Assembly (NCBI GenBank): GCA_039654915.1
Contig: CM077599.1
Span: 19,842,501 to 19,906,500 of the forward strand
From: Aquilaria yunnanensis
Taxonomy: Eukaryota; Streptophyta; Magnoliopsida; Malvales; Thymelaeaceae
Reading direction: 5' to 3'
Length of the DNA stretch: 64,000 nt
Within the stretch, counting starts at the first letter, position 1; every line of letters starts with the position of its first letter. Position numbers and translations under genes: made by a program. Of this stretch, positions 1 to 64,000 are shown piece by piece. Below the pieces are notes generated by a model. That model saw nothing but the letters and a program-made list of their open reading frames with translations, did not search any database and had not been told where the DNA came from.

Positions 1-1589
<1,589 letters not shown>

Positions 1590-1642
1590 TTTTCGAGTTT
1601 AGTCTATGGATTTTGAGAGTCTTCCGAGGGTGTTGGGTTGGG

Positions 1643-1650
1643 TTATATAG
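1643..1650 (-). promoter_or_regulatory. TATA box of the carboxypeptidase gene
   Basis: On the minus strand the sequence reads CTATATAA, about 55 bases upstream of the start codon at 1589. This spacing allows a transcription start near 1615 and a leader of roughly 25 bases. Assigned by motif and position only. Confidence 0.5.
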
Positions 1651-2565
1651 AAGGTGGCTCAATCATTACGCTACGCTCTTGCTTGTATTTTGTTTGGCCA
1701 TCGCCAAAGGCTGACACACCACAAGCACTCTGGTGTCAACTTGTTTCTCTTTCATGGAGAATGTTAAAATACGAAATATTTACGGGCTGTCCTGCACGGG
1801 CAACTACTACCTGTATACGAAAACAAACGAGTCGCCATCCCTTCACCCCGCAGTGAAATTTAGGCGATCTTATTTGGAAAAGTTCCTATTTTTTCGCTCT
1901 TTTTATATAATTTTGTTTTTGAATTTAAATCTTTTCTTTTTACCACACACAAATATTTACTATTACAAGTTTAAGGGTTTTGGATGAAGGGGAAAGGGTA
2001 AGGGGAGACTCAAATGCAGATGATGGATGTAAAGCGATATCCCTTTAGCAACCAAATTAGAAAGACCGGATGAATTTAAATTATTTTGAATGATTTCCAA
2101 ACATAGATAAATATAGCAATAAATATATAAATAAGTTTGAAAATTATTCTCTTTTCTCCAAAGAAAGAATGAGTACATTCACTTTATCAAAGGTGGTTTG
2201 CACAAACAATCCTGTTCAATAAGGCAACTGAAGGCAGATGAGGGACTTGTAATCCAATCTAAGGATCTCATCTCATTTTAACATTGTTTTGCTACAAAAT
2301 CAACACACATATTCACACACCTAGGTATATGAGTGAATTTACAAGAATTGAACTGTCGGCTGAAATTCTTTACCAACTAGTAATTATAGCAAGAAATATA
2401 TAAATATGTATAAGCTCTATATAATTAATGTAAAGAATATACTTGAAAAAATATTCATAATTAAAAACAATTGACAAACATTCTAAGACATAAAAAAAGT
2501 TACAATTTTTTTTTTTGAAACATCATCTAGGCTTGTGATTTCATTACCACAAGGACCTTGAGTGA
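1651..2565. other. AT-rich intergenic, no gene seen
   Basis: Upstream flank of the carboxypeptidase gene. Open frames here are short and of random composition. No repeat boundary or RNA gene was recognised. Confidence 0.5.
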
Positions 2566-9084: not shown

Positions 9085-10539
9085 TGTTGGCCCAAGGAGT
9101 AATCAAGAAAGAGGTGAATTAATTGGTTTTAAAAAATTTTCCCAAAATGATTCTTTGTTGTCTTTAGTCAAGAAACAAATAAAAGAGCTTATATGAACTT
9201 GCACTACTTAGAAAATTCTACCACAACTATCCTAGAATTTGTTTTAAAAATATGCCTTGAACAAGCTAAAAAAAGGACAACAAAAGTTTGATAATCTATG
9301 AACTGAAAAATACAAAGTAGACAATAAATGGAAAAAGAGAAAGAAAGAGCTTGAACACCAATATTTTTATAGAGGTTCGGTCTCTCCTCTTGAGAGTTTA
9401 CTCCTCTCCTCAAACTTACCACTTGAGAGTTTCTTATTCACTAAGAATCACAAGAGTACACAAGAACACACACTCCTTTGGTAGTTCTCTCTACCATAAC
9501 CACTCATTAATTTTCCTATAGGCTAACTAGAAACCTTATCAACACCCTTTCCCTCACTAGTTTTCCTAGAGGTTAACTAAAAACAACATCAACTTAATCT
9601 CACCAAATGACGTTTACAATGTTACAAGCTCAAACAATAGCACTCCTGCTAGATATACAAGTGAAAGCAGAAACTCTCTTAGCAAATCTCAAATTTAGCA
9701 CACTTGATTTGATCTAGATAATGGATTCTCATTTCTAATAGCCAAAAGTTCTTCCCAAAATGTTTCTCCATGTTTTTATACTCATTTGAAAGCCAAAGAG
9801 ATATTGAAGATCCATTGGGATCGTCAGAAAACCTTCCAAGAAATCTGGTGACTATTGTTGTAAAATTTGACAACCTTTTGCTTTTGTCTAGCATTTTCAA
9901 TTGGTTGGAAAATTTTCAACCTATTGAAAATTAAGTCTTAGACCAAAAAGCAGACTTTTTGCCAATGGCTAGAATTTTGATTGGGTTGCTGTGAAATCCA
10001 CATAGCAAGCTGAACTGGAACGTGTCAAATTTAAATTTTCAAAGATTTTTATAATGCGCTTTTGCTTGAAAGACATTTCTGGCGATTTTCAACTAGTTGT
10101 TTTGCTTCTAACCAGATGTTTTTGACTTCCAGAAGCTAAAATGATTCTGTCATAAGAAATTAACCCACTGGTTCGTTTCAACTTGTTGTTTTGTAAATTT
10201 CTGAAGCTAAAATGTCTCAGGTACAAAAATAAATATGTAAACCAACTTGTTGGACCTTTTTAACTCATTATTTTTACTTTCCTTGCACCTTATTATACTA
10301 ACTTGTCAATTTTCATACCTTACTAACACATTTTAACACCAAATCACTTTACTCCAAGTTTTTGATATAAAACACTCGAGAAATCAAACTTGAGTGAAAT
10401 ACTATATCAAAATATATTTTTCTTTTCTTAAAAAAAGCTTAAACTCATTTAACCCAAGAAATAAAATATTTAAAAAGATAAGCTAACTTTGTTTTGTGAT
10501 CATCAAAATTAACTACTTAATTAATAAACAAATCCAACA
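9085..10539 (-). repeat. 3' LTR of the copia element (1455 bp)
   Basis: Starts TGTTGG and ends CCAACA on the plus strand, and is collinear with 12696-14145. Immediately to its right lies a polypurine tract on the minus strand (AATGGGGACAC, about 10540-10555), which marks it as the 3' LTR. Confidence 0.9.
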
Positions 10540-12695: not shown

Positions 12696-14145
12696 TGTTG
12701 GCCTAAAGAGCAACCAAGAAGGGAGTGAATTAGTTGGTTTCAAAAAATTTTACCAAAATAATTCTTTGTTGCCTTCAGTCAAAAAAAAAATAAAAGAGTT
12801 TATGTAAACTTCCACTACTCAAAAAATTCTGCTATAAATACCCTAGAATTTGTTTTGAAAATATGCTTTGAACAAACTAAAGAAAAGGCAACAAAGGTTT
12901 GATAATCAATGAACTAAAAAATACAAAGTAGACAAGAAATGGAAGAAAAGAAAGGAAGAGCTTAAGCACCAATATTTTAATAGAGGTTCGATCTTTCTTC
13001 TTGAGAACTTTCTTCTTGAGAACTTACTTCTCTCCTCAATCTTACCACTTGAGAATTTCTTATTCACTAAGAATCACAAGAGTTATATAAGAACACACAC
13101 TCCTTTGGTAATTCTTTCTACCACAACCACTCACTAGTTTTCTTATAAACTAACTAGAAACCTCACTAATACCCTTTCCCTCACTAGTTTTCCTAGAGGC
13201 TAACTAAAAACCTCACCAACTCAATCTCACCAAATGGTGTTTACAAGGTTACAAGCTCAAATAATAGCACTCTTGCTAGATATACAAGTGAAAGCGCAAA
13301 CTCTCTTGACAAATCTAAAATTTAGCATACTTGATCTGATCTAGATAATGGATTCTCACTTTTAATGGCCAAGAGTTCTTCTCAAAAAGTTTCTCCATAT
13401 TTTTATACTTATTTGGGAGCCAAAGAGGCATTGAAAAACCTTTCAAGAAATTTGGTGACTATTGCCGTAAAATTTGACAGCTTTTTGCTTCTATCCAACA
13501 TTTTCAACCAGTTGAAAAATTTTCAACTTATTGAAAATTGAGTCTCAGACTAAAAAGCGAACTTTTCTCCAACGGCTATAATTTGATTGGGCTGTTGTGA
13601 AATCTACATGACAAGCTGACCTGGAACGCGTCAAATTTGAATTTTTAAAGATTTTTGGGACCCGCTTTTACATAGAAGACATTTTTGGCAATTTTCAACT
13701 AGTTGTTTTGTTTCTAACCAGTTGTTTCTGATTTTAATGAGCTAAAACAATTTTATCTTTAGAAATCAACCCGCTGGTTTATTTGTACTTGTTGCTTTGT
13801 AAATTCTTAGAGCTAAAATGTCTCGGGTACAAAAATAAATACGCAAACCAACTTGTTGGACCTTTTTAATTCGTTGTTTTTGCTTTTCTTACACCTTATT
13901 ATACTAACTTGTCAATTTTCATACCTTACTAACACATTTTAACACCAAATCACTTTACTACAAGTCTTTGATATAAAACACTTGAGAAATCAAACTTGAG
14001 TGAAATACTGGATCAAAATATATTTTTCTTTTCTTAAAGAAAGCTAAAACTCATTTAACCCAAGAAAGAAAACATTTAAAAAGATAAACTAACTTTATTT
14101 TATAATCATCAAAATTAACCACTTAATCAAGGAACAAATCCAACA
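12696..14145 (-). repeat. 5' LTR of the copia element (1450 bp)
   Basis: TGTTGG...CCAACA, homologous along its whole length to 9085-10539. Followed on the right by the CATGA duplication. Confidence 0.9.
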
Positions 14146-38507: not shown

Positions 38508-41500
38508 ATGGAAAGTCGGAAATCCGGAAAGGCGAAAGGCGGCCAAGAGAACAGGAAGAAGCGATTCGAGAGGCAACTGGTGAGGTTTAAAGACTTGCCC
38601 GAATATTTGCAGGACAACGAGTTCATTTTGGACTATTATCGATGCGAGTGGTCTCTCAAGGATATCTTCATCAGCGTTTTCACTTGGCACAACGAAACCC
38701 TCAATATATGGACGTAATTGCCTATCAATCGTTGTTCCTCTTGATTTCGCATTTCTTCGATCGATTAACTTCCTCTTCTGATCTGGTCTACCTCTTGTTT
38801 CTGCAGACATTTGGGAGGATTTCTCATCTTCGTCTGGTTGACGGTGGTAAGCTTGGTGGCGGAGCTCGGAGATGGAGGTTTGATCTCCGGCCTGTCCAGG
38901 TTTTCTGTTGAGGGCTTTTCTGTAACTATATAAAGTTCTATGCCTTGCAGAAACTTTTCTCAACTCTTCGCCAACTTTTTCTGTAGAGGTCAAGCTTCAT
39001 GGTCGTTCTCGACGCCGATGACGCCGATGCACGAAACGAGCGTGTCTCAGACTCGCATTTTTCCAGTGAGTTCTTTTTTTTTTTTTTTTGTGGTTATTTG
39101 TTCAGAACTTTTTTATTTTCCTTTAAATCAAGAGGAGTTGTATATTTTTAGTAGAGTCACAATTTACTCGAAAATTTCAAAATTGAATCTTATAACTTGG
39201 TTATTATTAAATTTAAGTAATGTACACTAAATTCTATGACTAATTACATTTTACCCTTTATTTAGCTTGGTTGACATCAATTTTTATTTAAATTACTAGG
39301 AACTGTTTTTATGTAAATTTAAACCTAGTAATTTTTTTAAGATTAATGATTAGTTTAATTATTAATTTTTCCTCAAAAATTGGGGTAGAGTAGGTTTGAG
39401 AATTGGAGTATAAGTCTAAATAAGAAAAAAGGTGAAATTGACCCTTAACTCTATTTCAATTGTCTTTGTAGAGGATTTTTTTTAATTTTATCTCGCAGAA
39501 TATTTGTTTTCCTAAAATTCACTTTTCTAAATATTTATATATGCAGAAGATTCGATTTATTTTTTTTTTTTTAAAGAAGACTACTGCCCAGAGGTGGAAA
39601 AATGGGCGGGACATGGGGACGAGACGCCACTTTTGTCTACTTTTCTTATTTGAAACAATAATTATGCAATGGCTCCAGAACAACGAAATTCTCTCTCATG
39701 GAATATGGCAAAGCCAAAAAGCGTGTGACCTTTGGCATATTTATTTGCACTCTAAGGCTTTGAACTTTTCCTAATAGCAGGCTTAGCAGCTCAAGTACAA
39801 GTTATCGTTTTTCACCTTGGCTTCAAGCGCCAGCTAATCGCCTCAAGTACATTTTCTCTTTTTTGGTTTTCCACTTTTCAGTCTCCGTGCCTCACTCTCG
39901 TAGACTATACATGGAACTTTTTCGTATAAATTAGGATGAATTTAACCATACATGTACTAATTATGTGAGAAAAATGTTACGTTTAGTGTTAAAATTTTTC
40001 AAAATTTCCTATGTAAAAAAGTCTAAAAAATATATTAAATTTACTCTATTAGTCCTAAACTGGATGGGCCTTCATATGATAATGAAAATACTAACTTGAG
40101 ACTTGAAACCCATCAACATCCACAGGTAAATTACATAAACTTGTGAGTCTTACTGACAATTATTAATGAGTCCTTTCAGTGGTCTAAAAGTTCACTTTGT
40201 TCCATTTGTAAGTAAACTGTCGCCCCTAAGGTTTGCTTTAAAATTACATTGTCTCCCCTAATGGTGTTAACTAATTTTTCCAGGCTTTAGGAGTGCAATA
40301 TAACTGTGTGCAAAAATCAGCTCAGTTTGTGTAATTTACCTGAGAATTTATGTTGCAAAAAATTTGGTCTTTGTTTCAATTTTCAGTTTAAAATCCCATA
40401 ACATAACATGCATTACTGCGTCTAACGTCTCAACTATGGTTCTTTCGTTAGCTTTTCCGTTGATTTTGACGGAAATATATTGATGTCGCGGGAGACTTGT
40501 CCTAGTAGGCTTCGAATTGGCTTATACTGGTGTTTTATTTCCTCGTCTCTGTTTCTGTCCCGCTTCTCCCCGTTGTCGTAAAGACGGAGCGATTTTCGGC
40601 CTCGATTTTGGCCTTCGATCGACGATTGTCATCGGGGATGGTTAGGTTTGAAGATCGAGGGTTGCTATGCAGGACCCCTAAATGTCCACTTATCAATCCG
40701 GTCATCAGATCGTCAAATTGAGATCGAAAACTTAGTGATTAGGGTTCTCTATGTCTTGGAATTTGGAAACTCCAAGTAAGGGCAATTTCGGAATAGTATG
40801 TCGAAGGCAGGACAGTAATGAGGGTCGACGTAGCCCTAATTTCTTAGCCCCTAATTGTGGGGGCCGGTGGCCAAATTAACGCACTCTCCTTTGCTTTTTT
40901 TTGCCCCCTGGATAAATAGTAGTATTATTTCTCATCCAAATTACCACTCCTAATCTGAAAAAAAAAAAAGTTTTTTTTTGTGATCTTTTGAAGCAGTTGC
41001 TTCACCGAATAAGCGACCGGCTAATTTTCCGTTTAAAGTTCTCATTGATAAAATGAGTTAGTTCTTTCATGTTCCAGATATTATTGAGGTCAATTTATGT
41101 TTAAAGAAAAAAAATGTTATCGAGGTTAATTAATGTTATTTAATGAGAAATGAATATTTTAATTGTTATATATAACTTCTGTCGTGATGGTGAGGAGATT
41201 TGGCATATTATCGTCCTTTTTGGCACTGAAGCGGTGAATAGAATGAATTGTGCTGATGAACAAAATGTTGGTGTTACTTACAGGGTGTGGGAAACGTTTC
41301 TGAGGCATCAGGTTTAAGGGAAGCAGGGTATTACGAGGCCATCCCAAAATGGCCATGGTTTGTCTTCCTATCTGGCGCAATGGGCTGCTTGGTTTGTAGT
41401 GCTCTCTCCCACCTCTTCGCCTGCCACTCCGAGCGCTTCAACCTCTTCTTCTGGCGCCTTGACTATGCCGGAATCTCCCTCATGATAGTCTGCTCGTTCT

Positions 41501-41943
41501 TTGCCCCAGTCTACTACGCCTTCTTCTGCAACCCCTACGCTAGGCTCTTCTACCTCTTGTCCATATCGGTGCTTGGTGTGCTCGTCATCATCACTCTGCT
41601 CGTGCCTGAACTCTCTGCTGCTCGCTTCAGGTCCTTCAGAGCGGTGTTGTTCCTTTGTATGGGATTCTCGGGGTTGATTCCTGCTGGGCACGCGCTGTTC
41701 CTCCACTGGGGAGCGCCTCAGGTTCTTGTCTCGCTCGGATATGAGGTCGTTATGGGGGCTCTCTATGCTGCTGGGGCTGCATTTTACACCAGCAGGATAC
41801 CGGAGAGATGGAAACCTGGTAAGTTTGACATGGTAGGGCACAGCCATCAAATATTCCATGTGTTTGTGGTCCTGGCAGCGCTTACTCACAGCGTTGCAAC
41901 ACTATTGGTTATGGATTTTCGTAGTGGCTCGCCCAGCTGTTAG
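38508..41943 (+). CDS. Heptahelical transmembrane protein (PAQR/adiponectin-receptor family)
   Basis: Four exons, 38508-38713, 38807-38899, 38951-39065 and 41284-41943, all GT-AG and in frame, encode 357 residues, near the usual size of plant HHP proteins. The family are seven-helix membrane proteins related to adiponectin and progestin receptors; plant members are linked to hormone and sugar responses. Seen: a basic cytosolic N-terminus, the family signature [11 protein letters not shown] (30-40) and [11 protein letters not shown] (60-70), helix 1 about 70-89, a variable loop (about 90-155), then six helices in exon 4. [11 protein letters not shown] (177-187) and [10 protein letters not shown] (323-332) supply H181, H326 and H330, the expected zinc ligands. 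The N-terminal block looks closest to Arabidopsis HHP1 from memory. Exon 4 is strikingly GC-rich. Intron 3 is 2.2 kb and holds a MITE. The gene looks intact. Confidence 0.93.
39066..41283 (+). other. Intron 3 of the HHP gene (2218 bp)
   Basis: Donor CCA|GTGAGTTC and acceptor TTACAG|GGTGTG. Contains a poly-T run near the donor, the MITE at 40123-40342 and a GC-richer patch at about 40500-40870 on neither side of which ends were found. Open frames within it (39541-39774, 40530-40721) are not supported as genes. Confidence 0.8.
40123..40342. mobile_element. 220-bp MITE in HHP intron 3
   Basis: CAGGTAAATTACATAAACT at the left and its near-complement AGTTTGTGTAATTTACCTG at the right. Interior AT-rich and non-coding. 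Target duplication not resolved. Confidence 0.65.
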
Positions 41944-51574: not shown

Positions 51575-52374
51575 AGGTCTAAATACCCTTAACTTGGCTA
51601 ACTAGTACCAGTTAGTCCCTTAACTTGAAATAAGCTTATGTTGATCCCCTAGCTTGGCAATTTGGCATGGGTTAGTCCTATCACCTCATATGTTATAGTT
51701 GTGTCATTCTTTTGTAGATGTTTAGCAACATTTGGGCTGAAATATATAATAAGGGAAGCAGCATGGATAAGTAGAGCATTTCATCATTTAAAAAATAAAT
51801 AGAAATTGAAATGAATTTAACTTTGATCAAATCACGTTTATTTTTCAAATGAAAAATAAGTTAAAAATAAAAATGATAAAAATAAACTTAATTCCACTTA
51901 AAAATTTTATTTATGATTTTTATAAAAAAATATCTACGTAATAAATGAAATTGATATTTTAAAGTTGAATTACCCGAATAATTTATTAAACTTTGTTAAA
52001 TTCATAAGTTGATTATAATGTCTTTAGTTTATAAAGATGAAAACTAACAGTTCAGAAAAATCCTCATATTATTAGAAATAAATTAAAAAAAACCTTTAAG
52101 TCTCTCAATCTCCATCACATATTCATTTACTCGTTAGTAAGAGAGTAGCAGCGGGGTTAGTGGGGAGAGATCATAACAGTGTGGCCATGTTTGCTCTTTC
52201 ATATGGCTTTTCTTATGTTAGTTATGGCCGGTTGTATCTATAAGCTCTAGCTAGGGGTGATTATTCGGTTTGTTCGGTTTAAATCAAACCAAATTATTCA
52301 GTTTATTCAGTTTTTAGTTTTGGATATTAAGAAATTGAAATAACCAAATTAGTCTATAAAACCGAATTCAAACC
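51575..52374. other. Old repeat pieces at the left flank of the giant element
   Basis: 51575-51700 (TACCCTTAACTTGG, TTAGTCCCTTAACTTG) resembles a MITE end without a partner. 52256-52374 (AGGGGTGATTATTCGGTTTG...) resembles the start of a hAT MITE that is cut off at 52374 by the LTR. Confidence 0.45.
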
Positions 52375-55181
52375 TGTGGCAACGTCGGGTTTTCGGGAGT
52401 CGCCACCAATCAGTTTTCTTAGGTCGATTGGTCACCTTAAAATTGGTCTGCGAGAGTTCGGGGATCGGGAGTACGGTTACGCTAAAACAATATTGTTATA
52501 GCGCCCAAAATTGGCACCTTAGTTGATTTTAATTTTGTTTTGCTTTGCTTTTAAATAATTCTCAGTTAATTTTCAAAATTAGAAATTTTAACTGGATTAG
52601 TCGAAATGTGGATTTTTAAATTAATTAATTTGTATGAAATTTTATACTTCCGAACCATGGACTCTGCCGAGTCATTTGGACACGGAAGATTTTGATTCCG
52701 AACCATGGACTCTGCCGAGTCATTTGGACACGGAATTTTGGTGAAATTTTAATCCATATCGTAAAAATATGGATTTTTATCTTTTTATTTAATTTATTTA
52801 TTTTAAAAGTTAATATTTTCCAAACCGTAGATCCTGCCGGATCATCTGGATATGAAAATTAATTTAAATTTAATTATTTAATTAATTAATAAACGGTACA
52901 CGCAAACTGAATTTTCCTAAATGTGATTTTTTTATTATATTAAAACTAATTTTAGATTAACTATTAAAAAGTCTATCCAAATCTAATTATGTTTAATATT
53001 AATTCCTAAACTAATTCATAATTATCCAAACAAAACTATAAAAGGAAAACATAAGTAAAACAATGACCAATTTGTAAATCAGAACAACATTAGAGGCTCA
53101 ATTAGACAAATCAAATAAATTCAAGGGTAAATTATTTATTAAAAATATTTATCTAAACTAATCACACAATTATGTTTAATATTAATTTCTTTAAGTTTAT
53201 TCATACTCTTAATCAAATGAACAAACAAAAACATAAAAGAAAATAAACATTAGTGACCAAATTGTAAATCGAAACAACCTAAAAGTCTCAGATGAACAAA
53301 TCAAATAAATCCAGGGAGTAAATTATTTATTAAAATCACCAATCTAACATAATCATATAATTAAACTTAATGTAAATTCCTAAGTTAATTTATGTCTTTA
53401 ATTAACTGAACAAACAAACAAAAAAAAAAAAAAAAAAAAAAAAACACAAAAAGAAAATAAGTAAATCAGTGATCGAAATACACAAAGCAGTCATTAATCC
53501 AAAGTTAGGTAAATACCATCTCAAGTCATCTTCTTCGATTTGTTCTCTGTGGCCTTCAACCAGAAAACACCATTTTTAATTCAATCAAATATCATGCTGA
53601 TTTCAATCCAAAATCAAGGTTATATATACAATCTTATGTACGGATTTTAATAAGACTAACAATATCCAAGGAGGAGAGCACAAAAAAAAATTAAACCAGG
53701 AAAATAGACAGATGCTGCCACTTTCCTTAATCCTGTGATTTTACATAGAATGAATTCTCGAAAATTGATCTTTTAAACGCATCATATAGATACAATTAAA
53801 ATTAAAAAAAAATTTAAGATAAATAAAATAAAAATAGACACCCTAACTTGTATTCCTATGTGAATTTATTAATTAAATTGATGCACGGCCAAACCATAAA
53901 AAAATGTTGTCAGTCACTTATCTGCAAGATAAAATAAGTTAGTAACTCATGTGGAAGAAAATAAAAAGATGGAGGATTGAATAATGGTTTTACCCAAAAA
54001 TAAACAAAAAAATAATCAACTTTGACTTGTCAACGTGCAAAACTCCCAGGCGCGTCTTCATCTTCTCCCTTTGGTTCTTTCGGCGTCGAGGGCGGCGCAA
54101 GGAGGGCACAGCAAGTGGAGGCTGGAGGAGGGACTGGATCAGAACGGTGGCTGACGGCGGCTGGAAGAAGCAGGGGGAAGCACGGCGAGCGCGCGGGAGG
54201 CAAACGGAGGAGGGCGAGGTGCGAGAGTGCGCGAGACGAGGCGGCGATGGAGTCAATGGCGAAGGGAGACGGCAGTACTGGGCACGACGAGAGAAGTTAG
54301 GCGATGGCACGGGCGCGAATAGCAGGGAGGTGAGCCGACGGTGGGTGCGACGGCAGGGATTGGAGGAAAGATGGAGCAGTGGAGGCAGGACAGCAGAGAT
54401 AGCAAGTAGGGGCAGGAGGGGGCGAGGGGGCAACGCGGTGGCACGGGCGCGAACGGCAGGGAGGAGGGAGTTCTAGCTGAGAGGGAGAGAGTGAGCGTGA
54501 GAGTCAGGAGAGGCAAAGGAGAGAAGGGCGAGCGTGAGAGAAGGAGAGAGAAACCGAGAGGGAGAAGGAGAGCAGATGAGAGAGGGAGAGCGTGAGAGAA
54601 GGAGAGAGAAACCGAGAGGGAGATGAGAGAGGGAGAGCGTGAGAGAAGGAGAGAGAAACTGAGAGGGAAAAGGAGAGCAGATGAGAGAGGGAGAGCGTGA
54701 GAGAAGGAGAGAGAAACTGAGAGGGAAAATGAGAGCCGCCGGAGAGGGAGAGCGTGAGGGAGAAGATGAAGAAGAAGAACGTCAAGGAGAGAAGATAAGA
54801 TTAGAGATAAGGGGGCGAGAGAAGATAAGGGATAAGGGGAGGGGGAGCCTCTGTCGGCCACCCTCCCCATTTTTTATTATTATTTTTATTATTTTTCTTT
54901 TTTTTTTTCTTTTTAATTAATTAATTAATTAATAATTTTTAATTTTAATTAACTTAGATTTAATTTATTATTATTATTATTTTCTTCTTCTTCCCTTTTT
55001 TTTTTTTTTTTTAACAAACAAACTAAAAAAGAACGCCCCTAAAATAATATTGCCATTATTACTATTATTATTATTTTTTTAATTAAGTAATCAATTAATT
55101 AACTAATTCAATAAATTTTTTTTAATTTTTAATTTAATTAATTTTTTTTATTTTTAAGCCGGACGAAATTGGGTGTCAACA
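52375..55181 (-). repeat. 3' LTR of a very large LTR retroelement (2807 bp)
   Basis: Plus-strand ends TGTGGCAACGTCGGG and GGGTGTCAACA, so TG...CA. On the minus strand a purine-rich tract (GCAAAGGGGGGCAGC, 55182-55196) immediately precedes TGTTGACACCC, the layout of polypurine tract plus 3' LTR. The LTR contains a 48-bp direct repeat (CCGAACCATGGACTCTGCC at about 52651 and 52699, a third diverged copy near 52820), a GC-rich stretch at 54020-54480, about 52-bp GA-rich tandem repeats at 54520-54760 and several A/T homopolymers. Overlapping long frames here are compositional. The matching 5' LTR would lie beyond the right edge. Confidence 0.7.
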
Positions 55182-55196
55182 GCTGCCCCCCTTTGC
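55182..55196 (-). promoter_or_regulatory. Polypurine tract of the large LTR element
   Basis: Minus strand GCAAAGGGGGGCAGC directly next to the LTR boundary. This is the primer for plus-strand DNA synthesis in LTR elements and sets the element's sense as minus. Confidence 0.65.
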
Positions 55197-55258
55197 ATGC
55201 TTCATGGGACATGATGTATGCAAAGTTAGTTACCAAATTTCGTCCAGCTTAGCTAGGC

Positions 55259-56310
55259 ATTGAAAACCTTCTCGCCGCCTAAACTCTGAGGTTTAAGGAA
55301 AGATCCTTAGAACCTCTAACGATAGAAAAGGTTCTATCGTTATAAGATGGACTGAAAGATTGATTGTTTGTTTGAGGTTCAGGAAAGGTCCTTAGAACCT
55401 CTAACGATAGGAAAGGTTCTATCGTTGTAAGATGGACTGAATGATTGATTGTTTGTTTGAGGTTAAGGAAAGGTCCTTAGAACCTCTAACGATAGGAAAG
55501 GTTCTATCGTTGTAAGATGGACTGAATGATTGATTGTTTGTTTGAGGTTTAAGGAAAGGTCCTTAGAACCTCTAACGATAGGAAAGGTTCTATCGTTGTA
55601 AGATGGACTGAATGATTGATTGTTTGTTTGAGGTTTAAGGAAAGGTCCTTAGAACCTCTAACGATAGGAAAGGTTCTATCGTTGTAAGATGGACTGAATG
55701 ATTGATTGTTTGTTTGAGGTTTAAGGAAAGGTCCTTAGAACCTCTAACGATAGGAAAGGTTCTATCGTTGTAAGATGGACTGAATGATTGATTGTTTGTT
55801 TGAGGTTTAAGGAAAGGTCCTTAGAACCACTAACGATAGGAAAGGTTCTATCGTTGTAAGATGGACTGAATGATTGATTGTTTGTTTGAGGTTTAAGGAA
55901 AGGTCCTTAGAACCTCTAACGATAGGAAAGGTTCTATCGTTGTAAGATGGACTGAATGATTGATTGTTTGTTTGAGGTTTAAGGAAAGGTCCTTAGAACC
56001 TCTAACGATAGGAAAGGTTCTATCGTTGTAAGATGGACTGAATGATTGATTGTTTGTTTGAGGTTTAAGGAAAGGTCCTTAGAACCTCTAACGATAGGAA
56101 AGGTTCTATCGTTGTAAGATGGACTGAATGATTGATTGTTTGTTTGAGGTTTAAGGAAAGGTCCTTAGAACCTCTAACGATAGGAAAGGTTCTATCGTTG
56201 TAAGATGGACTGAATGATTGATTGTTTGTTTGAGGTTTAAGGAAAGGTCCTTAGAACCTCTAACGATAGGAAAGGTTCTATCGTTGTAAGATGGACTGAA
56301 TGATTGATTG
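55259..56310. repeat. 86-bp tandem array of paired hairpins (about 12 copies)
   Basis: Unit: GAGGTTTAAGGAAAGGTCCT, TAGAACCTC, AACGATAGGAAAGGTTCTAT, CGTTGTAAGATGGACTGAAT, GATTGATTGTTTGTTT. Each unit holds two inverted repeats: GAGGTT.AAGGA/TCCTT..AACCTC and AACGATAG/CTATCGTT. Copies are nearly identical, indicating recent amplification. Non-coding. Confidence 0.93.
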
Positions 56311-56960
56311 TTTGAGGTTAAGGAACTCTCCTTAGAACCTCGACGATAGGAACTCTCCTATCGTTGAAAGTTTGAGGTTAAGGGCCTTACCTTAGAACCT
56401 CTGCGATAAGAACTCTCTTATCGTTTAAGAAAAATTGATGATTGATTGTTTGAGGTTTAAGGAACTCTCCTTAGAACCTTAACGATAGGAACTCTCCTAT
56501 CGTTGCAAGTTTGAGGTTAAGGGCCCTACCTTAGAACCTCTGCGATAAGAACTCTCTTATCGTTTGAAGAAAAATTGATGATTGATTGTTTGAGGTTTAA
56601 GGAACTCTCCTTAGAACCTTAACGATAGGAACTCTCCTATCGTTGCAAGTTTGAGGTTAAGGGCCCTACCTTAGAACCTCTACGATAAGAACTCTCTTAT
56701 CGTTTACGAAAAATTGATGATTGATTGATTGAATGAGGTTAAGGGTCCTACCTTAGAACCTCGACGATAGGAACTCTCCTATCGTTTGAAGGAAAATTGT
56801 TTGAATGAGGTTAAGGGTCCTACCTTAGAACCTCGACGATAGGAACTCTCCTATCGTTTGAAGTAAAATTGTTTGTTTTGAGGTTAAGGGTCCTACCTTA
56901 GAACCTCGACGATAGGAACTCTCCTATCGTTTTGAAGGAAAATTGATGATTTTGAGGTAA
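56310..56960. repeat. Variant hairpin repeats (ACTC-loop type)
   Basis: Same two-hairpin plan with altered sequence: GAGGTTAAGGAACTCTCCTT..AACCTC and ACGATAGGAACTCTCCTATC, or GCGATAAGAACTCTCTTATC, in which both stem sides change together. Units with GGGCCTTACC, GGGCCCTACC or GGGTCCTACC loops alternate. Non-coding. Confidence 0.88.
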
Positions 56961-57950
56961 AGGTTCCATCCTTAAAACCTCGAATTGATTGATTGATCTC
57001 GAGGCAAAGGTTCCATCCTTAAAACCTCGGATTGATTGATTGATTTCGAGGCAAAGGTTCCATCCTTAAAACCTCGAATTGATTGATTGATCTCGAGGCA
57101 AAGGTTCCATCCTTAAAACCTCGGATTGATTGATTGATCTCGAGGCAAAGGTTCTATCCTTAAAACCTCGGATTGATTAATTGATGTCGAGGCAAAGGTT
57201 CCATCCTTAAAACCTCGGATTGATAATTGATTGTTTTCGAGGCAAAGGTTCCATCCTTAAAACCTCGAATTGATTGATTGATGTCGAGGCAAAGGTTCCA
57301 TCCTTAAAACTTCGAATTAATTGATTGATGTCGAGGCAAAGGTTCCATCCTTAAAACCTCGAATTGATTGATTGATGTCGAGGCAAAGGTTCCATCCTTA
57401 AAACCTCGGATTGATTGATTGATCTCGAGGCAAAGGTTCTATCCTTAAAACCTCGGATTGATTGATTGATCTCGAGGCAAAGGTTCAATCCTTAAAACCT
57501 CGGATTGATTGATTGATTTCGAGGCAAAGGTTCCATCCTTAAAACCTCGGATTGATTGATTGATGTCGAGGTAAAGGTTCCATCCTTAAAACCTCGGATT
57601 GATTGATTGATCTCGAGGCAAAGGTTCTATCCTTAAAACCTCGGATTGATTGATTGATCTCGAGGCAAAGGTTCAATCCTTAAAACCCCGATGATGAAAA
57701 TTGATTGATGTCGAGGTAAAGGTTCCATCCTTAAAACCTCGAATTGATTGATTGATCTCGAGGAAAAGGTTCCATCCTTAAAACCTCGGATTGATTGATT
57801 GATTTCGAGGCAAAGGTTCCATCCTTAAAACCCCGATGATGAAAATTGATTGATGTCGAGGTAAAGGTTTCATCCTTAAAACCTCGAATTGATTGATTGA
57901 TCTCGAGGCAAAGGTTCTATCCTTAAAACCTCGATGATGAAAATTGATTT
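56950..57950. repeat. 47-bp tandem hairpin array (about 20 copies)
   Basis: Unit: CGAGGCAAAGGTTCCATCCT, TAAAACCTCG, then GATTGATTGATTGATYT. CGAGG..AAGG pairs with CCTT...CCTCG. Spacer GATTGATTGAT is shared with the 86-bp array, so the arrays are related. Non-coding. Confidence 0.93.
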
Positions 57951-58489
57951 TGACTGTGGAGAAAAACTCTTTCCTCCTTTTTAAGTACCTCAGACAATCG
58001 AAGTTGAAATGTTCTATTCGGAAGTGTGAATTTTCATAATAGGTGAGTGCAAAAATTTAAACTTCGATAAGATGAGTGAATCTTGATGATGACAATAACA
58101 CTGACAAATTATGTAAAGGGAACGGATGTTTGGAATCAATATCCAAGGTTCATCTAATATTTTCTTCAGTAAATATAGATTCCCTTGTGAGATATGTCAT
58201 CCAAATAAGGTTAAAGCTTAACTACCCCAAAATGTTATGCCTAGTAGATCTAATAGGATTCGTCTCAAGAGTAATAAAAATTACTCTTTACTCAGCCATT
58301 CCAACCTAAAGGCATTGTCCCATGGTTTTAATATCAGCATGGACGAAACTATCTTATAAGAAAAGAAATTCCTTGAAAAGAAAAACTGAAACGCGAAAGA
58401 AAATGCTGATAATAAAACTAAAGGACAAGAAAAACGGATCAGATCGCTTCTTTCTTCCACAATACTTCAACAGGGTGAGTAGAGGACCA
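57951..58489. other. Spacer between LOG gene and hairpin arrays
   Basis: Downstream of the LOG stop codon on the minus strand. No repeat or convincing frame; would be the LOG 3' UTR region. Confidence 0.45.
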
Positions 58490-59119
58490 TTATGGGAATG
58501 AACTGGTCGGGAAAGACTGTCGTGTCCAGTCTATCTGAATCATTGCTGGATCTGGTTCAGGAACAAAAGCTTGTATTTTATCTAGCAATTCTTCAGCAGT
58601 TGTTGCGGATATTATGATTCGCCGTGCCACTCTTGATATGAAATTCTTCTGCATAGCATAATCCATAAAAGCTATCAGACCTGTAAAGAAATTGTTAACA
58701 TTTAAAAGCCCAATGGGTTTCTTATGCAAATTAAGTTGGGCCATGGAAGCAATTTGAAAGACTTCTCCCAACGTGCCAAAACCACCTGGTAGAGCGATAA
58801 AAGCATCAGCATTTAAAAGCATTTGTAACACACGCTCTTGCAAATTTTTAACCACTAATTCTTCTCCAATCGTGCCCCCAGAAATAAATTTCAGAGGTCC
58901 AGGGATAATGCCCAGAACTTGACTTCCTCCTAGAGATGCTGCTGATGCTACACCTCCCATTAATCCGACACTACCTCCTCCATAAACTAAATGCATTTTT
59001 CGCTCAGCTAATACTCTACCCAAATGGTTGGCTGCTTTTAAATACTCTTCATCTTTTCCAGGAAAAGCCCCAGAAAATACACAAATACTTCGGGATTTAC
59101 GAGTTGGGGTTTTCTCCAT
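58490..59119 (-). CDS. LOG-like: LOG-type cytokinin nucleotide phosphoribohydrolase, intronless
   Basis: A single uninterrupted frame of 209 residues, the usual LOG length. LOG enzymes are cytosolic and cleave ribose 5'-phosphate from cytokinin nucleotides to release active cytokinin. Motifs seen: SICVFSGAFPGK (11-22), LVYGGGSVGLMGG (44-56), the family arginine in LQERVLQM (R96) and the signature PGGFGTLGE (111-119) with E119, then GLLNVNNFF and the C-terminal PEPDP..IDW. Active-site residues appear intact. Plant LOG genes normally have several introns; none is present here, which suggests a retrocopy. The start is the ATG at 59119 (MEKTPTRK); the frame continues upstream to 59206 but that part spans the TATA motif. 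Same strand as three neighbouring ORFs and the LTR, with related upstream sequence. Confidence 0.92.
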   Translation of the reverse strand: MEKTPTRKSRSICVFSGAFPGKDEEYLKAANHLGRVLAERKMHLVYGGGSVGLMGGVASAASLGGSQVLGIIPGPLKFISGGTIGEELVVKNLQERVLQMLLNADAFIALPGGFGTLGEVFQIASMAQLNLHKKPIGLLNVNNFFTGLIAFMDYAMQKNFISRVARRIIISATTAEELLDKIQAFVPEPDPAMIQIDWTRQSFPTSSFP

Positions 59120-59150
59120 TCCTATCCTTACCCTTGTGAGAAAAGAGGAT

Positions 59151-59160
59151 ATATTTATAG
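59151..59160 (-). promoter_or_regulatory. TATA box of the LOG gene
   Basis: Minus strand CTATAAATAT, 32-41 bases ahead of the ATG, implying a very short leader. The surrounding words (TATTTATAG.GATGAA on the plus strand) recur ahead of the ORFs starting at 60352 and 61115. Confidence 0.6.
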
Positions 59161-59214
59161 AGATGAAGAGAGAAGGCAATAATTTTATTTTCAAGAATGG
59201 ATACATTATTGCCA

Positions 59215-59760
59215 GCTATTCACAGTAGCCACAAGTATGACTTTGGTCAGGTATGGGTACACTATCGTTAAAAGAGGAGGAAAATTTTCAAAATAGCTGC
59301 TAGCATGTACAGTAGTCACTACTGTAGCTTATGTCAGGAGTAGGTACGTGATTGTTGGAAGAGAAGGAAAATTTTAAAAAGTGGCAGCTATATACAGTAA
59401 TCATAACTGTATCTCATGTCAGGAGTGGGTACATTATTGGGAGGAAGGAGGAAAATTTCAAAAGCGACAGCTAGTATGTACAGTATCGTGACTATGGCTC
59501 ATGTCAGGAGTGGATACATTATCGCCGAAAGGGGAGGAAAATTTCAAAAGCGACAGCTAGCACGTACAGTAATCGTGACTTTGGTTCATGTCAGGAATGG
59601 ATACATTATCGCCGAAAGGGGAGGAAAATTTCAAAAGCGACAGCTAGCACGTACAGTAATCGTGACTTTGGTTCATGTCAGGAGTGGATACATTATTACC
59701 AAAAGGGGATGAAAATTTCAAAAGCGACAGGTAGCACGTACAGTAATCGTGACCTTGTTC
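59215..59760 (-). repeat. About 87-bp tandem repeats upstream of LOG (6 copies)
   Basis: Plus-strand unit: GTCAGGAGTGGATACATTAT, CGCCGAAAGGGGAGGAAAAT, TTCAAAAGCGACAGCTAGCA, CGTACAGTAATCGTGACTTT, GGTTCAT. Unit starts near 59248, 59335, 59419, 59503, 59589 and 59677; the copies nearest 59700 are most alike and those nearest LOG most diverged. Single related copies stand upstream of the ORFs starting at 60352 (near 60470-60530) and 61115 (near 61280-61365). Candidate promoter or enhancer array; an open plus frame through it (59416-59712) is a by-product of the repeat. Confidence 0.85.
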
Positions 59761-59803
59761 CGTCTTCTACTGGCTTTGCGTCCAGTAACGGCTTCAATGC
59801 TTT

Positions 59804-60352
59804 CTATGAATCGATGATTTGCATCTCATCTAGCTTTTTCACAAACTGGCAAACAGGATCGTTTAGGGTCAGATTCCCAAGACTGTAACGTTCTCGTTCT
59901 TTTTGGAGAATTATCCATAATCCAACAACCTCAAATTGCACTATTCCGCAAGAATGCGCTTCAAGAACCTCTCGGATATCTTCCAGAGATTCCTTACGCA
60001 AGCCATTCTTGATGAATTTTATTCTATCTTCACGATTTCTGGTAATCACTCCTGGAGAACGACATTTAGCACCGCAAATCCACCATCCACAATTATGACA
60101 AACGCCTAGCCTCTTTGCTCTTCTTTTTTTGGCATAAGCGCTTTTACCAAAGCCGGACATACGGGGAAAGAACGCATCTGGAACTTCACCAGCCGAACGA
60201 ACTTTAGCTTCGATTAGCCATCGCACATTATCAGGAATGCCTTTGTGCATAAATAGTCGGAATCGTTCACATCTAGCTTGATAAACCTTTTTAAGAACAT
60301 TTATTGGGAAAGAAGGGAAATATTTTCGTAGAGCGGAAAGAGAATACTCCAT
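59804..60352 (-). CDS. Cys-knuckle basic protein, paralog 1 of 3 (viral NABP-like)
   Basis: An intact frame of 182 codons from the ATG at 60352 (MEYSLSALRKYF). The N-terminal 65 residues are predicted helical. Then comes a strongly basic patch SAYAKKRRAKRLG followed at once by a CX2CX4CX3C knuckle (CHNCGWWICGAKC), and a charged helical C-terminus ending LDEMQIIDS. The order YA-basic patch-GxCxxC is the hallmark of cysteine-rich nucleic-acid-binding proteins of carla-type plant viruses (Pfam Carla_C4 / Viral_NABP); the rest is not recognised. Function inferred only: nucleic-acid binding. A TATA motif (ATATTTATAG, about 60406-60415) stands 50-60 bases upstream. It could instead be an element-specific accessory protein. 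Confidence 0.8.
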   Translation of the reverse strand: MEYSLSALRKYFPSFPINVLKKVYQARCERFRLFMHKGIPDNVRWLIEAKVRSAGEVPDAFFPRMSGFGKSAYAKKRRAKRLGVCHNCGWWICGAKCRSPGVITRNREDRIKFIKNGLRKESLEDIREVLEAHSCGIVQFEVVGLWIILQKERERYSLGNLTLNDPVCQFVKKLDEMQIIDS

Positions 60353-60566
60353 TGAAGGAGGCAAAGAAAGAAATTAGTGATTGTAGGAAATGAAAATAAC
60401 TAACACATATTTATAGTGATGAAAGGGATAATGCGTTAATTTACACTTACAGAAGCAAGTACATTATTGTCAAAAGAAAAGACAAATGACAGCTTATATG
60501 TACAGCAATCATGACTGTGGCTCTCATCTTCCACTGATTTATATCTAGTAATGGCTTCAATGCATT

Positions 60567-61115
60567 CTATGAGTCGAGGACTTGCTTCCCATCCAGTTTT
60601 CTTACAAGCTGGCAGACAGGGTCGTTTACAGTCACATTCCCAAGACTGTAACGGTCTCGTTCTTTATGGTAAGTCCTCCACAATTTGACAATTTGACCTT
60701 GCACTTTTCCACAAGAATGCGTTTCAAGAGTCTCTCGGATATCTTCCAGAGATTCCTTACGCAGGCCATTCTTAATGAATTTTCTTTTATCTTCACGATT
60801 TGTGGAGATGTATCCTAAAGAGCGACATTTAGTATTACAATTCCATCGCCCACATTTATAACACACGCCTAATCTCTTTGCTCTTCGCCTTTTGGCATAA
60901 CGGCTTTTACCTAAACCGGGCATGCGAGGCATAAATGCATCTGGAACTTCACCCGCCAAACGGACCTTAGCTTCAATTATCCACTGCACATTATCGGGAA
61001 TGCCTTTGCGTGTAAAAACTCTGATTCTTTCACATCTAGCAAGGTAGATCTTTTTAAGGACTTTTATTGGAATGGAAGGAAAGTATTTTCGCAGTGCAGA
61101 AAGAGTAGAATCCAT
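60567..61115 (-). CDS. Cys-knuckle basic protein, paralog 2 of 3 (viral NABP-like)
   Basis: 182 codons from the ATG at 61115, same length and layout as its neighbours: MDSTLSALRKYFPS, basic patch SRYAKRRRAKRLG (71-83), knuckle C85-C88-C93-C97, C-terminus QLVRKLDGKQVLDS. Roughly two thirds of residues match the paralog at 61403-61951 by eye, yet all three frames are open, which hints at selection to keep the protein. TATA motif ATTTATAG at about 61236-61243, 120 bases upstream. Confidence 0.8.
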   Translation of the reverse strand: MDSTLSALRKYFPSIPIKVLKKIYLARCERIRVFTRKGIPDNVQWIIEAKVRLAGEVPDAFMPRMPGLGKSRYAKRRRAKRLGVCYKCGRWNCNTKCRSLGYISTNREDKRKFIKNGLRKESLEDIRETLETHSCGKVQGQIVKLWRTYHKERDRYSLGNVTVNDPVCQLVRKLDGKQVLDS

Positions 61116-61402
61116 TGATGAGAGAAGAATTTGAGAGAAGAGGGAAATGAATCAGTTATTGTAGGAGACTGGAATAACCGAATTTAGAAGTCACGGGGTA
61201 TCTTATCCGCTGCTTAATCAGAAGGAAGAACACGCATTTATAGTGATGAAAAGGGATAACGTGTCAATTAGACTTAGGGGAGCAAATACATTATTAAAAG
61301 AAAAATGGAAAATTTTAAATATGATAAATTGTATGTACAGTGATTGTGACTGTGGCTCACATCTTCCACTGGTTTTACGTCCAGTAACGGCATTAACGGC
61401 TT

Positions 61403-61951
61403 CTATGAGTCGAGGGTTTGCTTGTCATCCAGTTTTCTTACAAGCTGGCAAACAGGGTCGTTTACAGTCAGATTCTCGGGACTGTATCGTTCTCGTTCTT
61501 CATGAAAAATGCTCCATAAACCAAGAAGTTCACGTTGCACGGATCCACAAGAACGCGTCTCAAGAGTCAATTGGATATCATCCAACGAGTCCTTACTCAG
61601 GCCATTCTTAATGAATCGTATTTTATCTTCTCGATTATCAGAGATCATTCCTAAAGAACGACATTTAGTATTACAAGTCCACCGTCCATATTTGTGGCAG
61701 ACTCGTAACCTTTTCGCTCTTCGCTTTTTGGCATAAGAGCTTCTGCCTATACCAGGCATGTGAGACACAAATGCCTCTGGGATTTTACCTGCTAGAAGAA
61801 CCTTAGCTTCGATTAACCACCGCACATCTTCAGGGATTCCTTTGTGCATCAGAACTCTTAATTGTTCACAGCGAACTTGGTAGATCTTTTTGAGAATGTT
61901 CATTGGGAGAGAAGGAAAATATTTTCGTAAGACAGAAAGAGTAGGATCCAT
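61403..61951 (-). CDS. Cys-knuckle basic protein, paralog 3 of 3, one Cys lost
   Basis: 182 codons from the ATG at 61951. Same layout as the other two but the knuckle reads CHKYGRWTCNTKC, so the second ligand position (88) is Tyr rather than Cys. Zinc binding may be weakened or lost while the rest of the protein is preserved. Upstream, the block AGTCACGGAGTACCGTATCC (62026-62045) matches AGTCACGGGGTATCTTATCC ahead of paralog 2, but no clear TATA motif was seen. Confidence 0.78.
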   Translation of the reverse strand: MDPTLSVLRKYFPSLPMNILKKIYQVRCEQLRVLMHKGIPEDVRWLIEAKVLLAGKIPEAFVSHMPGIGRSSYAKKRRAKRLRVCHKYGRWTCNTKCRSLGMISDNREDKIRFIKNGLSKDSLDDIQLTLETRSCGSVQRELLGLWSIFHEERERYSPENLTVNDPVCQLVRKLDDKQTLDS

Positions 61952-62080
61952 TTTCTAGAGGGAAGTAAAAGAAAGAAGAGAGGAAAGAATCAGTTATTAT
62001 GGGCAACTGAGAGAACCGACTTGAGAGTCACGGAGTACCGTATCCGCCGTTTAACCGAAAAAGTGGATCCTACTTTATTT
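61952..62080 (-). promoter_or_regulatory. Duplicated leader/upstream block of paralog 3
   Basis: GAATCAGTTATTRT...GGCAACTGAGAGAACCGACTTGAGAGTCACGG parallels 61150-61200 upstream of paralog 2, marking the edge of the duplicated module. Confidence 0.5.
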
Positions 62081-62084
62081 TGGT

Positions 62085-62480
62085 ATCATAGATATTTCTT
62101 ATCTTTGATATCTCGTAAGGCATGACATTGATCCAGTCCTTGACTATTGAATCCATTGTCCGCTTTTGACAAATTTTCAACGACAATATTTCTTGATGTC
62201 TGCCTTATCTTTGACCACAGCTATCTCTTATCTTAGATGCTGCTAAGCTGGCATCAATCTTGTCCTTCCAGGTGTAGCCACGATTATTGAATCAATTGCC
62301 AGGCTTTTGACAATATTGTCTACTTTATCCTTTTTGATATCTGCCTTATCCTTGGCTATAGCTATATCTTATCTTGGATACTACTAGCTGGCGTCAATCC
62401 TATCCTTCCAGGTGTAGCCTCGATTATTGAATCGGTAGCCAAGCTTTTGACAATATTGTCTACCTTATCCTTGAATTCCT
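62085..62480. repeat. 140-bp tandem repeats (about 2.5 copies)
   Basis: CTGCCTTATC.TTG, CTATCTCTTATCTTAGATGC, TGTCCTTCCAGGTGTAGCC and GCTTTTGACAATATTGTC recur at a 140-base period (for example CCTTCCAGGTGTAGCC near 62264 and 62404). Confidence 0.75.
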
Positions 62481-62481
62481 G

Positions 62482-62500
62482 ATGCGGGTTGGTCCCGCAT
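62482..62500. repeat. Perfect short hairpin
   Basis: ATGCGGG, 5-base loop TTGGT, CCCGCAT. Just past the end of the 140-bp repeats. Confidence 0.8.
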
Positions 62501-63250
62501 ATTAGCTGTGTATCCAGTGATAGATTGGTAAGAGCTGATGTTATTGAGATCTCGGCTTATACTGCTGTAGCTGTGCCGTGGATGTGCTTCCCATTTGATT
62601 CCTGTTCTGTATGCTATGTATGCATGATATGAAATGCATGAATGCAGAGCATGTGTAACTAATGGCTTTTTTTGTATGGATCTAGTTTTTTATGTCTTTG
62701 TTTTACTGGATCCTCTTTGTGATGGCTTCTTGGACTATCATTGAATCTCTTTATGCTTTCCAGCTTTTGTTCGCTGCCTCAAAAGCCCAACTCTTTTCAA
62801 AATCCCCTTTCCTTGACTTGTTCTTGAATTTTGGCCTCAATTTCTTTAAAGTTGGCTCGCCTCATAATTTATATCTCTTTCGGGTACTCATCCATTGTCA
62901 TGGATTTGATACCATCAAAGGCTTTACTTTGAATGTCTGCTTTGCCCATTTTCTTGTGACCGTGCCGACACTTACTTATCCCCATGTTATAATCTGAATG
63001 ATTGCTCTTCCTTGAACTCATGTTTTGATCCATAAGACTTGCCCCCTTGTCTATTGAGCTTCTTTGTTGGCAATCCCCTTCTTATGCTTCGTAGAGACTA
63101 CTTTGTCCCCCTGAATATGGTATTTATGTGGATAAAAGGTATCATCTCGCCTTTGATTTAACAGAAGGTCGAGCATTTCTAGACCTTTGTGATGGCACTT
63201 GATCGTAAATTTCTCTTACAAGAACCACATCTAATTAAAGAAAGACTCAA
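62501..63250. other. Interior of the large element, no gene supported
   Basis: A plus frame at 62692-62997 is hydrophobic and has no recognised domain. No minus-strand gag or pol motifs were found. Confidence 0.4.
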
Positions 63251-63251
63251 G

Positions 63252-63461
63252 CTATCTCCTCACTTTTAAGTCTACATACATTAATGAATAATGGTTTGGC
63301 CTTAAAGAAAAACATTCATCAATTTGCAAAGCTTGACAAAGTAATTTACGGTCTTTGTTTTTAATTAAAATATCCTGCCATTCTTCTCTTTCCAACTCGA
63401 AGACATAAACTGTGCAAGGCAATAAGGTAGAAACATGATTCACAAGGATAGCCTTTTAGCT
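63252..63461 (-). CDS. Hypothetical small ORF or terminal exon
   Basis: The frame is open from an upstream stop near 63462 to a TAG at 63252, without an ATG until late: VNHVSTLLPCTVYVFELERE..., ending MYVDLKVRR. Composition is protein-like. A CTACAG just upstream could be a splice acceptor. Its upstream edge lies inside a repeated block. No family recognised. Confidence 0.3.
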
Positions 63462-63780
63462 GTATGAGGATGATATCGAAAGGTAACTGTTAGGTGTGAA
63501 GAAAATTAAGTTTGAATGTTTTTTTTTTGTTTTTTGTTGCAGTCTTTTAGCTGAATGAGAATGATATTAAGAGGTAAATATTAGGTCTGAGTAAAGTTAA
63601 GTTTGAGTGGTGTGAAAGAAGGGTCTTTTAATACTACTCGTGAGCAGTATTAAATAAGGTAGAAACATGGTTCGCAATGATAGCCTTTTAACTGAATGAG
63701 GATGTTCGGTTTGAGAAAAGTTAAATTTAAGTGGTGTGGAAAAAGGGTCTTTTAATACTACTCATGAGCAAATTTGATTA
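63420..63780. repeat. Tandem repeats, about 110-240 bp spacing
   Basis: AATAAGGTAGAAACATGRTTC...GATAGCCTTTTA at 63421 and 63655, CTTTTARCTGAATGAGRATG at three places, and GAAAGAAGGGTCTTTTAATACTAC / GAAAAAGGGTCTTTTAATACTACTC at 63615 and 63738. Diverged direct repeats, non-coding. Confidence 0.65.
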
Positions 63781-64000
63781 TGGTGAAAAACTCAATAGTG
63801 ATGACCTCAAACTTGCCACTCTTTCCAGAAAATTAAACCTCATCTGTTGCCCCCCAACTATCGTGGTCTTTATGTATGCTTGGCTTGAAAGTTGCTTTTG
63901 TCTTCTAGACCGCCTTTGCAGGTTTTCAGTCTAGAATCCATAGCTCACTTTTTTTCTTTTTTTTTTCTTTTGCTCTAGTTTGAGCCCTTTTTCCTTTTTT

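Follow-up and report, generated by a model that had tools for sequence, protein, structure and literature searches.

Steinbauerova et al. reportedly found, in 2011, open reading frames (ORFs) resembling LOGL4 in two Athila-like elements. That LONELY GUY (LOG) genes occur in long terminal repeat (LTR) elements is already known: LTR element consensus sequences of Citrus and Populus contain a YgdH domain, otherwise a domain of LOG proteins, which the part of the account available to us places in line with the 2011 work (PMC9289625). Here we describe a LOG-bearing LTR element at the right end of a 64,000-nucleotide stretch of the Aquilaria yunnanensis genome (contig CM077599.1, positions 19,842,501 to 19,906,500; the window). 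In it, LOG lies beside three genes for proteins resembling the nucleic-acid-binding proteins (NABPs) of carlaviruses. We consider it likely that this is a complete, recent, non-autonomous Ty3/gypsy-type element with a conserved NABP and LOG cassette, for which we propose a mechanism, and that it probably belongs to the Tat/Ogre group.

The Citrus and Populus elements share with it a LOG-family domain inside an LTR element, but the available part of the paper describing them (PMC9289625) is silent on NABP genes, on internal promoters, on families lacking pol, and on EAR-like tails; the terms nucleic acid binding and Carla do not appear there. According to the sections accessible to us of PMC8704663, TR-GAG elements have LTRs and gag but no pol and can transpose, reverse transcription and integration being thought to be supplied by another element; one copy of the family described here, E7, likewise has an open gag without pol. 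However, TR-GAGs have a single gag ORF, whereas the present family has four accessory genes and a mostly broken, shortened, or deleted gag, and the window copy combines a broken gag with four other ORFs. Retand elements, in the portion consulted of PMC11963269, have an extended 3′ region containing tandem repeats and additional ORFs of possible nucleic-acid binding, as observed here, but their extra ORFs are antisense and mostly TRP28, whereas ours are all in sense and encode NABPs and LOG. The words lonely, cytokinin, Carla, and nucleic acid binding are not mentioned in that paper. The orchid gypsy giants with a captured 2-ODD/RNA demethylase domain also are Tat/Ogre-like, carry a host enzyme, and have an Arg-type primer-binding site (PBS); they differ in the enzyme and in having Gag and Pol in a single ORF, and no viral-type genes are named in the available part of the source (PMC9289625). 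A review of extra ORFs (PMC7264820) mentions neither LOG nor cytokinin nor carlavirus. Furthermore, in a literature search that covered few subscription journals and no bioRxiv preprints, we found no publication joining LOG, carlavirus-type NABPs, and LTR elements, and none on the EAR-like tail of these LOG relatives.

The 3′ LTR spans positions 52375 to 55181 on the minus strand (2,807 bp; TGTTGACACC...TTGCCACA) and has TG...CA ends. It is adjoined by the polypurine tract (PPT) AAAGGGGGGCAGC (55182 to 55194, minus strand), which also precedes the 3′ LTR of copies E1 to E7, with single changes in E2 and E3. The original prediction, made from the window alone, had described this LTR unit and its PPT, and both were found to be exact. 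It had also foreseen a matching LTR to the right. Indeed, alignment with the next 10 kb revealed a 5′ LTR at 67596 to 70402 with 99.82% identity to the 3′ LTR (1 substitution and 4 gapped columns in 2,809 columns). The expected 5-bp duplication was also detected: AAACC flanks both outer ends as a target-site duplication (TSD; 52370 to 52374 and, beyond the window, 70403 to 70407). The whole element measures 18,028 bp. With 4e-9 to 1.3e-8 substitutions per site per year, the single LTR substitution corresponds to about 0.01 to 0.04 million years, and the insertion is very young. The PBS, TGGCGACTCCACTGGGGAC, lies three bases away from the 5′ LTR and is presumably the complement of tRNA-Arg(ACG). 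Near-identical TG...CA LTRs with a short TSD, a PBS at the 5′ LTR, and a PPT at the 3′ LTR identify the element as an LTR retrotransposon. An Arg-type PBS is described for Ogre-like elements in the part of PMC9289625 that was available, and here, together with gag and protease remnants, it is only suggestive of the Tat/Ogre group. Another LTR piece, 86% like one 516-bp LTR end, was observed 1.4 kb past the 5′ LTR (71810 to 72339).

On the minus strand, the PBS is followed by a broken gag relic and then by the three viral-NABP paralogs and LOG, after which come the hairpin array, the PPT, and the 3′ LTR. Of the gag-protease-reverse transcriptase (RT)-RNase H-integrase set of autonomous Ty3/gypsy elements, the window copy has only the gag relic, with broken frames (65331 to 66630 in window numbering, beyond the window). 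The original prediction had placed the 5′ LTR and any gag or pol outside the window; this was correct for the LTR, but no pol was found, and gag was present as a broken relic only. No frame of 150 amino acids (aa) or more was found in the interval from the NABPs to the 5′ LTR. The internal region upstream of the cassette (61952 to 64000, minus strand), which continues to the gag relic and PBS past the window, contains a 140-bp tandem repeat (62193 to 62472) and no ORF of at least 130 aa wholly inside.

In line with the prediction of an intact LOG gene and three intact paralogs in sense to the LTR, all four frames are open, with Pfam matches to PF03641 and PF05515, respectively. The LOG frame, encoding a LONELY GUY-like phosphoribohydrolase of 209 aa, runs on the minus strand from the ATG at 59119 to the stop at 58490; at the local base composition, the chance of a stop-free run of this size is about 1e-6. 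Both the profile match (PF03641, E 1.6e-30, scored on a 238-aa frame starting upstream) and the family motif PGGxGTxxE, present as PGGFGTLGE, place it in the LOG family. The NABP frames (NABP3, 61951 to 61403; NABP2, 61115 to 60567; NABP1, 60352 to 59804; all minus strand) encode 182 aa each, with a chance of about 7e-6 per paralog for such a run. All three passed the PF05515 cutoff of 23 bits (NABP2, 34.1 bits, Viral_NABP 3.6e-08; NABP3, 25.5; NABP1, 23.6). The PF01623 cutoff of 20.9 bits was passed by NABP2 (25.2) and the Carla_C4/Viral_NABP-like NABP1 (24.1), and NABP3 scored below it (20.4). The matches span 31-101 of the 182 NABP residues. With the cysteine-rich/NABP proteins of carlaviruses and allied viruses (PF01623, PF05515), the NABPs have a basic stretch and a Cys cluster in common; they differ from them in being 182 aa long, present as three paralogs, and borne by a retrotransposon. 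Two AlphaFold models of NABP had mean predicted local distance difference test scores (pLDDT) of 52 and 65; a Foldseek search of the PDB with the latter model returned nothing, and hence no fold is claimed. Two scans of viral contigs with NABP yielded 28 and 66 pattern stretches but no relative.

The check suggested along with the original prediction, a search of the genome for further LTR copies holding LOG and the paralogs, gave seven such copies with the same gene order and hairpin arrays. In total, nine copies on five large (chromosome-size) contigs were compared: the window copy, E1 to E7 from six further regions around LOG copies, and E8. The last was covered from NABP3 to the 5′ LTR, with NABP2, NABP1, and part of LOG coming from a separate piece, and it enters the per-copy cassette counts with NABP3 only. 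The cassette was wholly covered in eight copies; in all eight, the genes lie on one strand in the order NABP3-NABP2-NABP1-LOG, and a hairpin array, the PPT, and an LTR come next. TSDs were found for E1 (ATCTT), E2 (CCACT), E4 (CTAAC), and E5 (TTAGC), and one end each of E3, E6, and E7 was unplaced. Seven copies, all but E6 and E8, were dated; the divergence K between their LTRs ranged from 0 to 0.015 and was at most 0.001 in four of them; for E3, 2,212 of about 3,280 LTR bases were aligned, with the end set by eye.

A tblastn search with a single Tat-type pol query (1,447 aa, taken from beside E4; E 1e-8) detected no RT or integrase inside any of the nine copies, and its few matches all fell outside the element ends. 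Since pol was missing from all nine copies with this query, the element looks non-autonomous. An open gag with a Pfam domain is present in E7 only (592 aa, PF03732, 1.2e-11). E4 contains a shortened gag and a protease in a single 735-codon frame, and E2 contains a 431-codon shortened gag frame and a 350-codon protease frame with E7 inserted between them; Pfam detected no gag domain in these E2 and E4 frames, and the proteases scored just under the cutoff. In E5, E6, E8, and the window copy gag is broken, and in E1 and E3 it is mostly missing. The LTR of E7 starts exactly at the break in the E2 protease remnant (L015:7356/7357), and E7 within E2 is a recent nested insertion inside one family. 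Near E3, an open 521-aa frame with a viral movement protein domain was observed (L018:1768-3330, minus strand; PF01107, 2.3e-12); together with an adjoining long frame (550-1728, minus strand), this stretch looks endogenous-pararetrovirus-type.

A first look at the 842-Mb genome gave 3,310 LOG candidates (profile) and 8,950 NABP candidates (NABP2 query), which are not verified copies. Among the best 150 scored of each, 145 LOG and 138 NABP matches had no internal stop, as counted by eye. These numbers would fit a few thousand cassettes of three NABPs each. The comparison of the window copy with E8 gave a mosaic: NABP2 (549 bp) and the next spacer (214 bp; together 60353 to 61115) are each 100% identical, while NABP1 and NABP3 are 88 to 89% and the gag relic 86% identical. 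This pattern suggests template switches between element RNAs.

LOG is full length in seven of the eight elements, and the NABPs are full length in 18 of 24 cases (19, if a 177-aa NABP of E1 is counted). This contrasts with a gag domain that is open in one copy out of nine, and we conclude that the copies mostly keep the accessory cassette. In E7, which has the best gag, two of the three NABPs are cut short, with NABP2 and LOG open. At other LOG loci (those of the window and E7 not counted), nine of 12 distinct full-length ones are open over 209 codons, one of them being without ATG. The ratio of nonsynonymous to synonymous substitution rates (dN/dS) was 0.25 to 0.36 at dS 0.53 to 0.83 between the NABP paralogs of the window copy. 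For the window LOG against nine other copies it was 0.23 to 0.32 at dS 0.22 to 0.28, and among these nine, which like all LOG copies used here were picked from open ones, it was 0.33 (ratio of sums). Judged by these substitution patterns, LOG and the NABPs are under purifying selection.

The cassette also contains putative internal promoters. A TATA-like motif, CTATAAAT, precedes each of NABP2, NABP1, and LOG, in the common context TTCATCACTATAAAT or one close to it. In the window, these motifs are located on the minus strand 128 bp before NABP2 (61235 to 61243), 64 bp before NABP1 (60408 to 60416), and 41 bp ahead of the LOG start codon (59152 to 59160). The distance to NABP2 is 128 bp in 7/8 copies (88 bp in E2), that to NABP1 is 64 to 68 bp in 7/8 copies (116 bp in E1), and that to LOG is 49 bp in all but the window copy among the seven copies compared, the region upstream of the E5 LOG being out of view. 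Upstream of LOG (59246 to 59757, minus strand), about six 87-bp units form an array that resembles the inter-NABP spacers in sequence. Upstream of NABP3, no TATA-like box was found within 420 bp. Here, in all eight copies, a pyrimidine-rich stretch ending in TAG is located immediately 5′ of AAAATG, and it resembles a splice acceptor.

Relatives of both gene types are present in many eudicots. The NABP relatives comprise 112 proteins, including those of Xanthoceras, Acer, Rhamnella, Parasponia, Orobanche, and Citrus. In two gene models, P0077 from Rhamnella and P0105 from Citrus, NABP continues into LOG; their NABP halves were assigned by 54% and 52% identity, respectively, and by precomputed Pfam, with hmmscan giving the LOG half only. 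Moreover, two pairs of NABP and LOG matches sit on equal-sized contigs (8,723 and 4,511), so that each pair presumably shares a single contig. An assignment of NABP-bearing elements elsewhere (P0064, P0090) to Athila, made from motifs, is only a lead, as Pfam confirmed no integrase or protease. In the parasitic broomrapes (Orobanche), several NABP relatives were observed (P0074, P0075, P0078, P0082, P0085, P0090, and P0101), and one cluster has 109 members.

Several genera, among them Reevesia, Paulownia, and Populus, have multiple copies of LOG relatives. In a 57-row tree, 47 LOG relatives and the window LOG, entered without its first two residues, were separated from nine LOG1/3/8-type proteins by a branch with 100% support (SH-aLRT); relatives outside 190 to 232 aa and LOG3-set proteins longer than 225 aa had been dropped, and both lists were thinned. 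LxLxL is the EAR motif, which recruits TOPLESS corepressors. It was found in the last ten residues of 99 of the 120 nearest LOG relatives but in none of 120 LOG1/LOG3-type proteins, a native-LOG control chosen by name and rank in which LOG5 and LOG7 types are unsampled; LOG8 is represented by one stretch in the tree. With a slightly different end pattern, 102 of the 120 relatives matched, and in 96 of these at least three of the six preceding residues are K or R. In this genome, none of the ten full-length LOG copies (nine distinct loci and the window) has the EAR-like tail; they end in SFPTSS[VLF]P or a close sequence.

How might such an element live? LOG enzymes release active cytokinin in one step, and a local increase in cytokinin would be expected from the element LOG, if its function is as its sequence predicts. 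We propose that an autonomous relative would supply the enzymes that copy LTR-driven RNA. Each of NABP2, NABP1, and LOG would have its own TATA promoter for expression, and the LTR RNA would serve to express NABP3, perhaps through splicing. LOG would then free active cytokinin, and cells in which the element is active would be kept dividing and permissive to transposition. The NABPs may act as silencing suppressors and/or transcriptional regulators. According to the available parts of two papers, relatives of the NABPs in viruses are suppressors of RNA silencing (PMC12172455, PMC8839810), and the relative from Chrysanthemum virus B is a transcription factor that induces hyperplasia (PMC12172455).

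Several observations weigh against this reading of the element and its genes. The lineage placement is based on likeness of the PBS, gag, and protease, and not on RT. Gag decay is not uniform, since E2 and E4 keep an open, shortened gag, and conservation of the TATA motifs was seen among close relatives only. In the window copy, 6 of 70 LOG columns conserved among 138 relatives are changed (four of these changes are common to P0113, the closest relative, in which a fifth column is altered too), and the Cys cluster of NABP3 has a Tyr at a position where Cys is almost invariant; due to these changes, the activity of this copy is unsure. Finally, trans-acting products aid all elements alike, and selection in a pol-less family therefore needs a benefit in cis or at the cell level. 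A speculative solution, to which we give little credence, is a cell-lineage drive, in which the pol-less family keeps genes for the division (LOG) and the tolerance (NABPs) of the active cell. The descendants of a dividing cell inherit the active copy, which would explain selection on trans-acting genes. In most nearest relatives, the basic stretch and the EAR-like LDLTLxL tail would, on this proposal, make LOG a nuclear, TOPLESS-recruiting protein with a second job.

Other explanations of the locus were weighed against a non-autonomous element with a conserved cassette. The original prediction had cautioned that host LOG and NABP genes might simply lie beside a solo LTR. The second LTR, the AAACC flanking the element at either end, and the PBS refute this, and the same block is found with LTRs at seven other places, so that we give this explanation practically no weight. 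The cassette could instead be a passenger, caught once, intact only through youth, and without a role in the life of the element. Retrotransposons often capture genes, and the LTR divergence of at most 0.001 in four of the seven dated copies is in line with youth. However, dN/dS of 0.23 to 0.36 between copies and paralogs at synonymous divergence of up to 0.83 per site, the presence of relatives in many eudicots, and the contrast between a gag that is broken, deleted, or shortened in eight of nine copies and a LOG that is full length in seven of eight make a mere passenger unlikely. It is slightly less probable still that the family is autonomous and that the copies examined are deleted derivatives. 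The sample consists of nine copies only, and Rhamnella P0064 joins a putatively integrase-like C terminus to NABP, of which Pfam gave the NABP part only. Against this, the one Tat-type pol query (E 1e-8) revealed no RT or integrase in any of the nine copies on five contigs, despite widely differing LTRs and lengths.

An explanation centered on the hairpin array itself was also considered: it could function as a Dicer decoy or as an NABP-bound packaging or localization signal in the element RNA. Hairpin arrays had been predicted, and the tandem arrays with periods of 86, 60/140, and 47 bp (55287 to 57933, minus strand) indeed consist of units with one or two inverted repeats each; this part of the prediction stood, but the folding of the 47-bp part did not stand out from shuffles on the minus strand. 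The presence of arrays in 8/8 copies would be compatible with a role, as would the strong folding of two of three 200-nucleotide minus-strand samples (z = −8.8, −7.6, and −1.6 relative to shuffles) and a G-C to A-U double change in the CGATAGG stem in 6 of 34 distinct units. On the other hand, the plus strand folded better than the sense strand. Covariation was weak: 3 pairs were changed on both sides versus 2.5 in shuffles, with 262 of 500 shuffles as high (double-change cells, 18/500; score, 5/500), in units chosen by a pattern that itself requires pairing. Furthermore, in a survey of recently active Retand elements, about half were found to carry tandem arrays between pol and the 3′ LTR (PMC11963269, in the part available). 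A function of the array itself therefore appears improbable, and we retain the non-autonomous element with its conserved gene cassette as the likely explanation.

Elsewhere in the window, a direct repeat of ~1.45 kb with 85% identity was detected (9085-10539 versus 12696-14145). In addition, two host-gene exons were identified, the start of a serine carboxypeptidase gene (1149-1598, minus strand; PF00450, 1.1e-15) and an exon for an HlyIII-type membrane protein (41260-41943, plus strand; PF03006, 1.2e-56).

For most additional ORFs carried by plant LTR elements, no function has been assigned. Those described here have predicted activities, hormone activation and nucleic-acid binding, that can be tested, and they bear on what non-autonomous elements add to their own spread. 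If the cell-lineage drive were true, the benefit would stay with the active copy while the enzymes come from elsewhere. The cassette is also relevant to how RNA viruses and retrotransposons exchange genes, in either direction, and the NABPs of Orobanche raise the question of element exchange between hosts and parasites. For genome annotation, plant LOG genes and "viral" genes may, in large numbers, be element genes.

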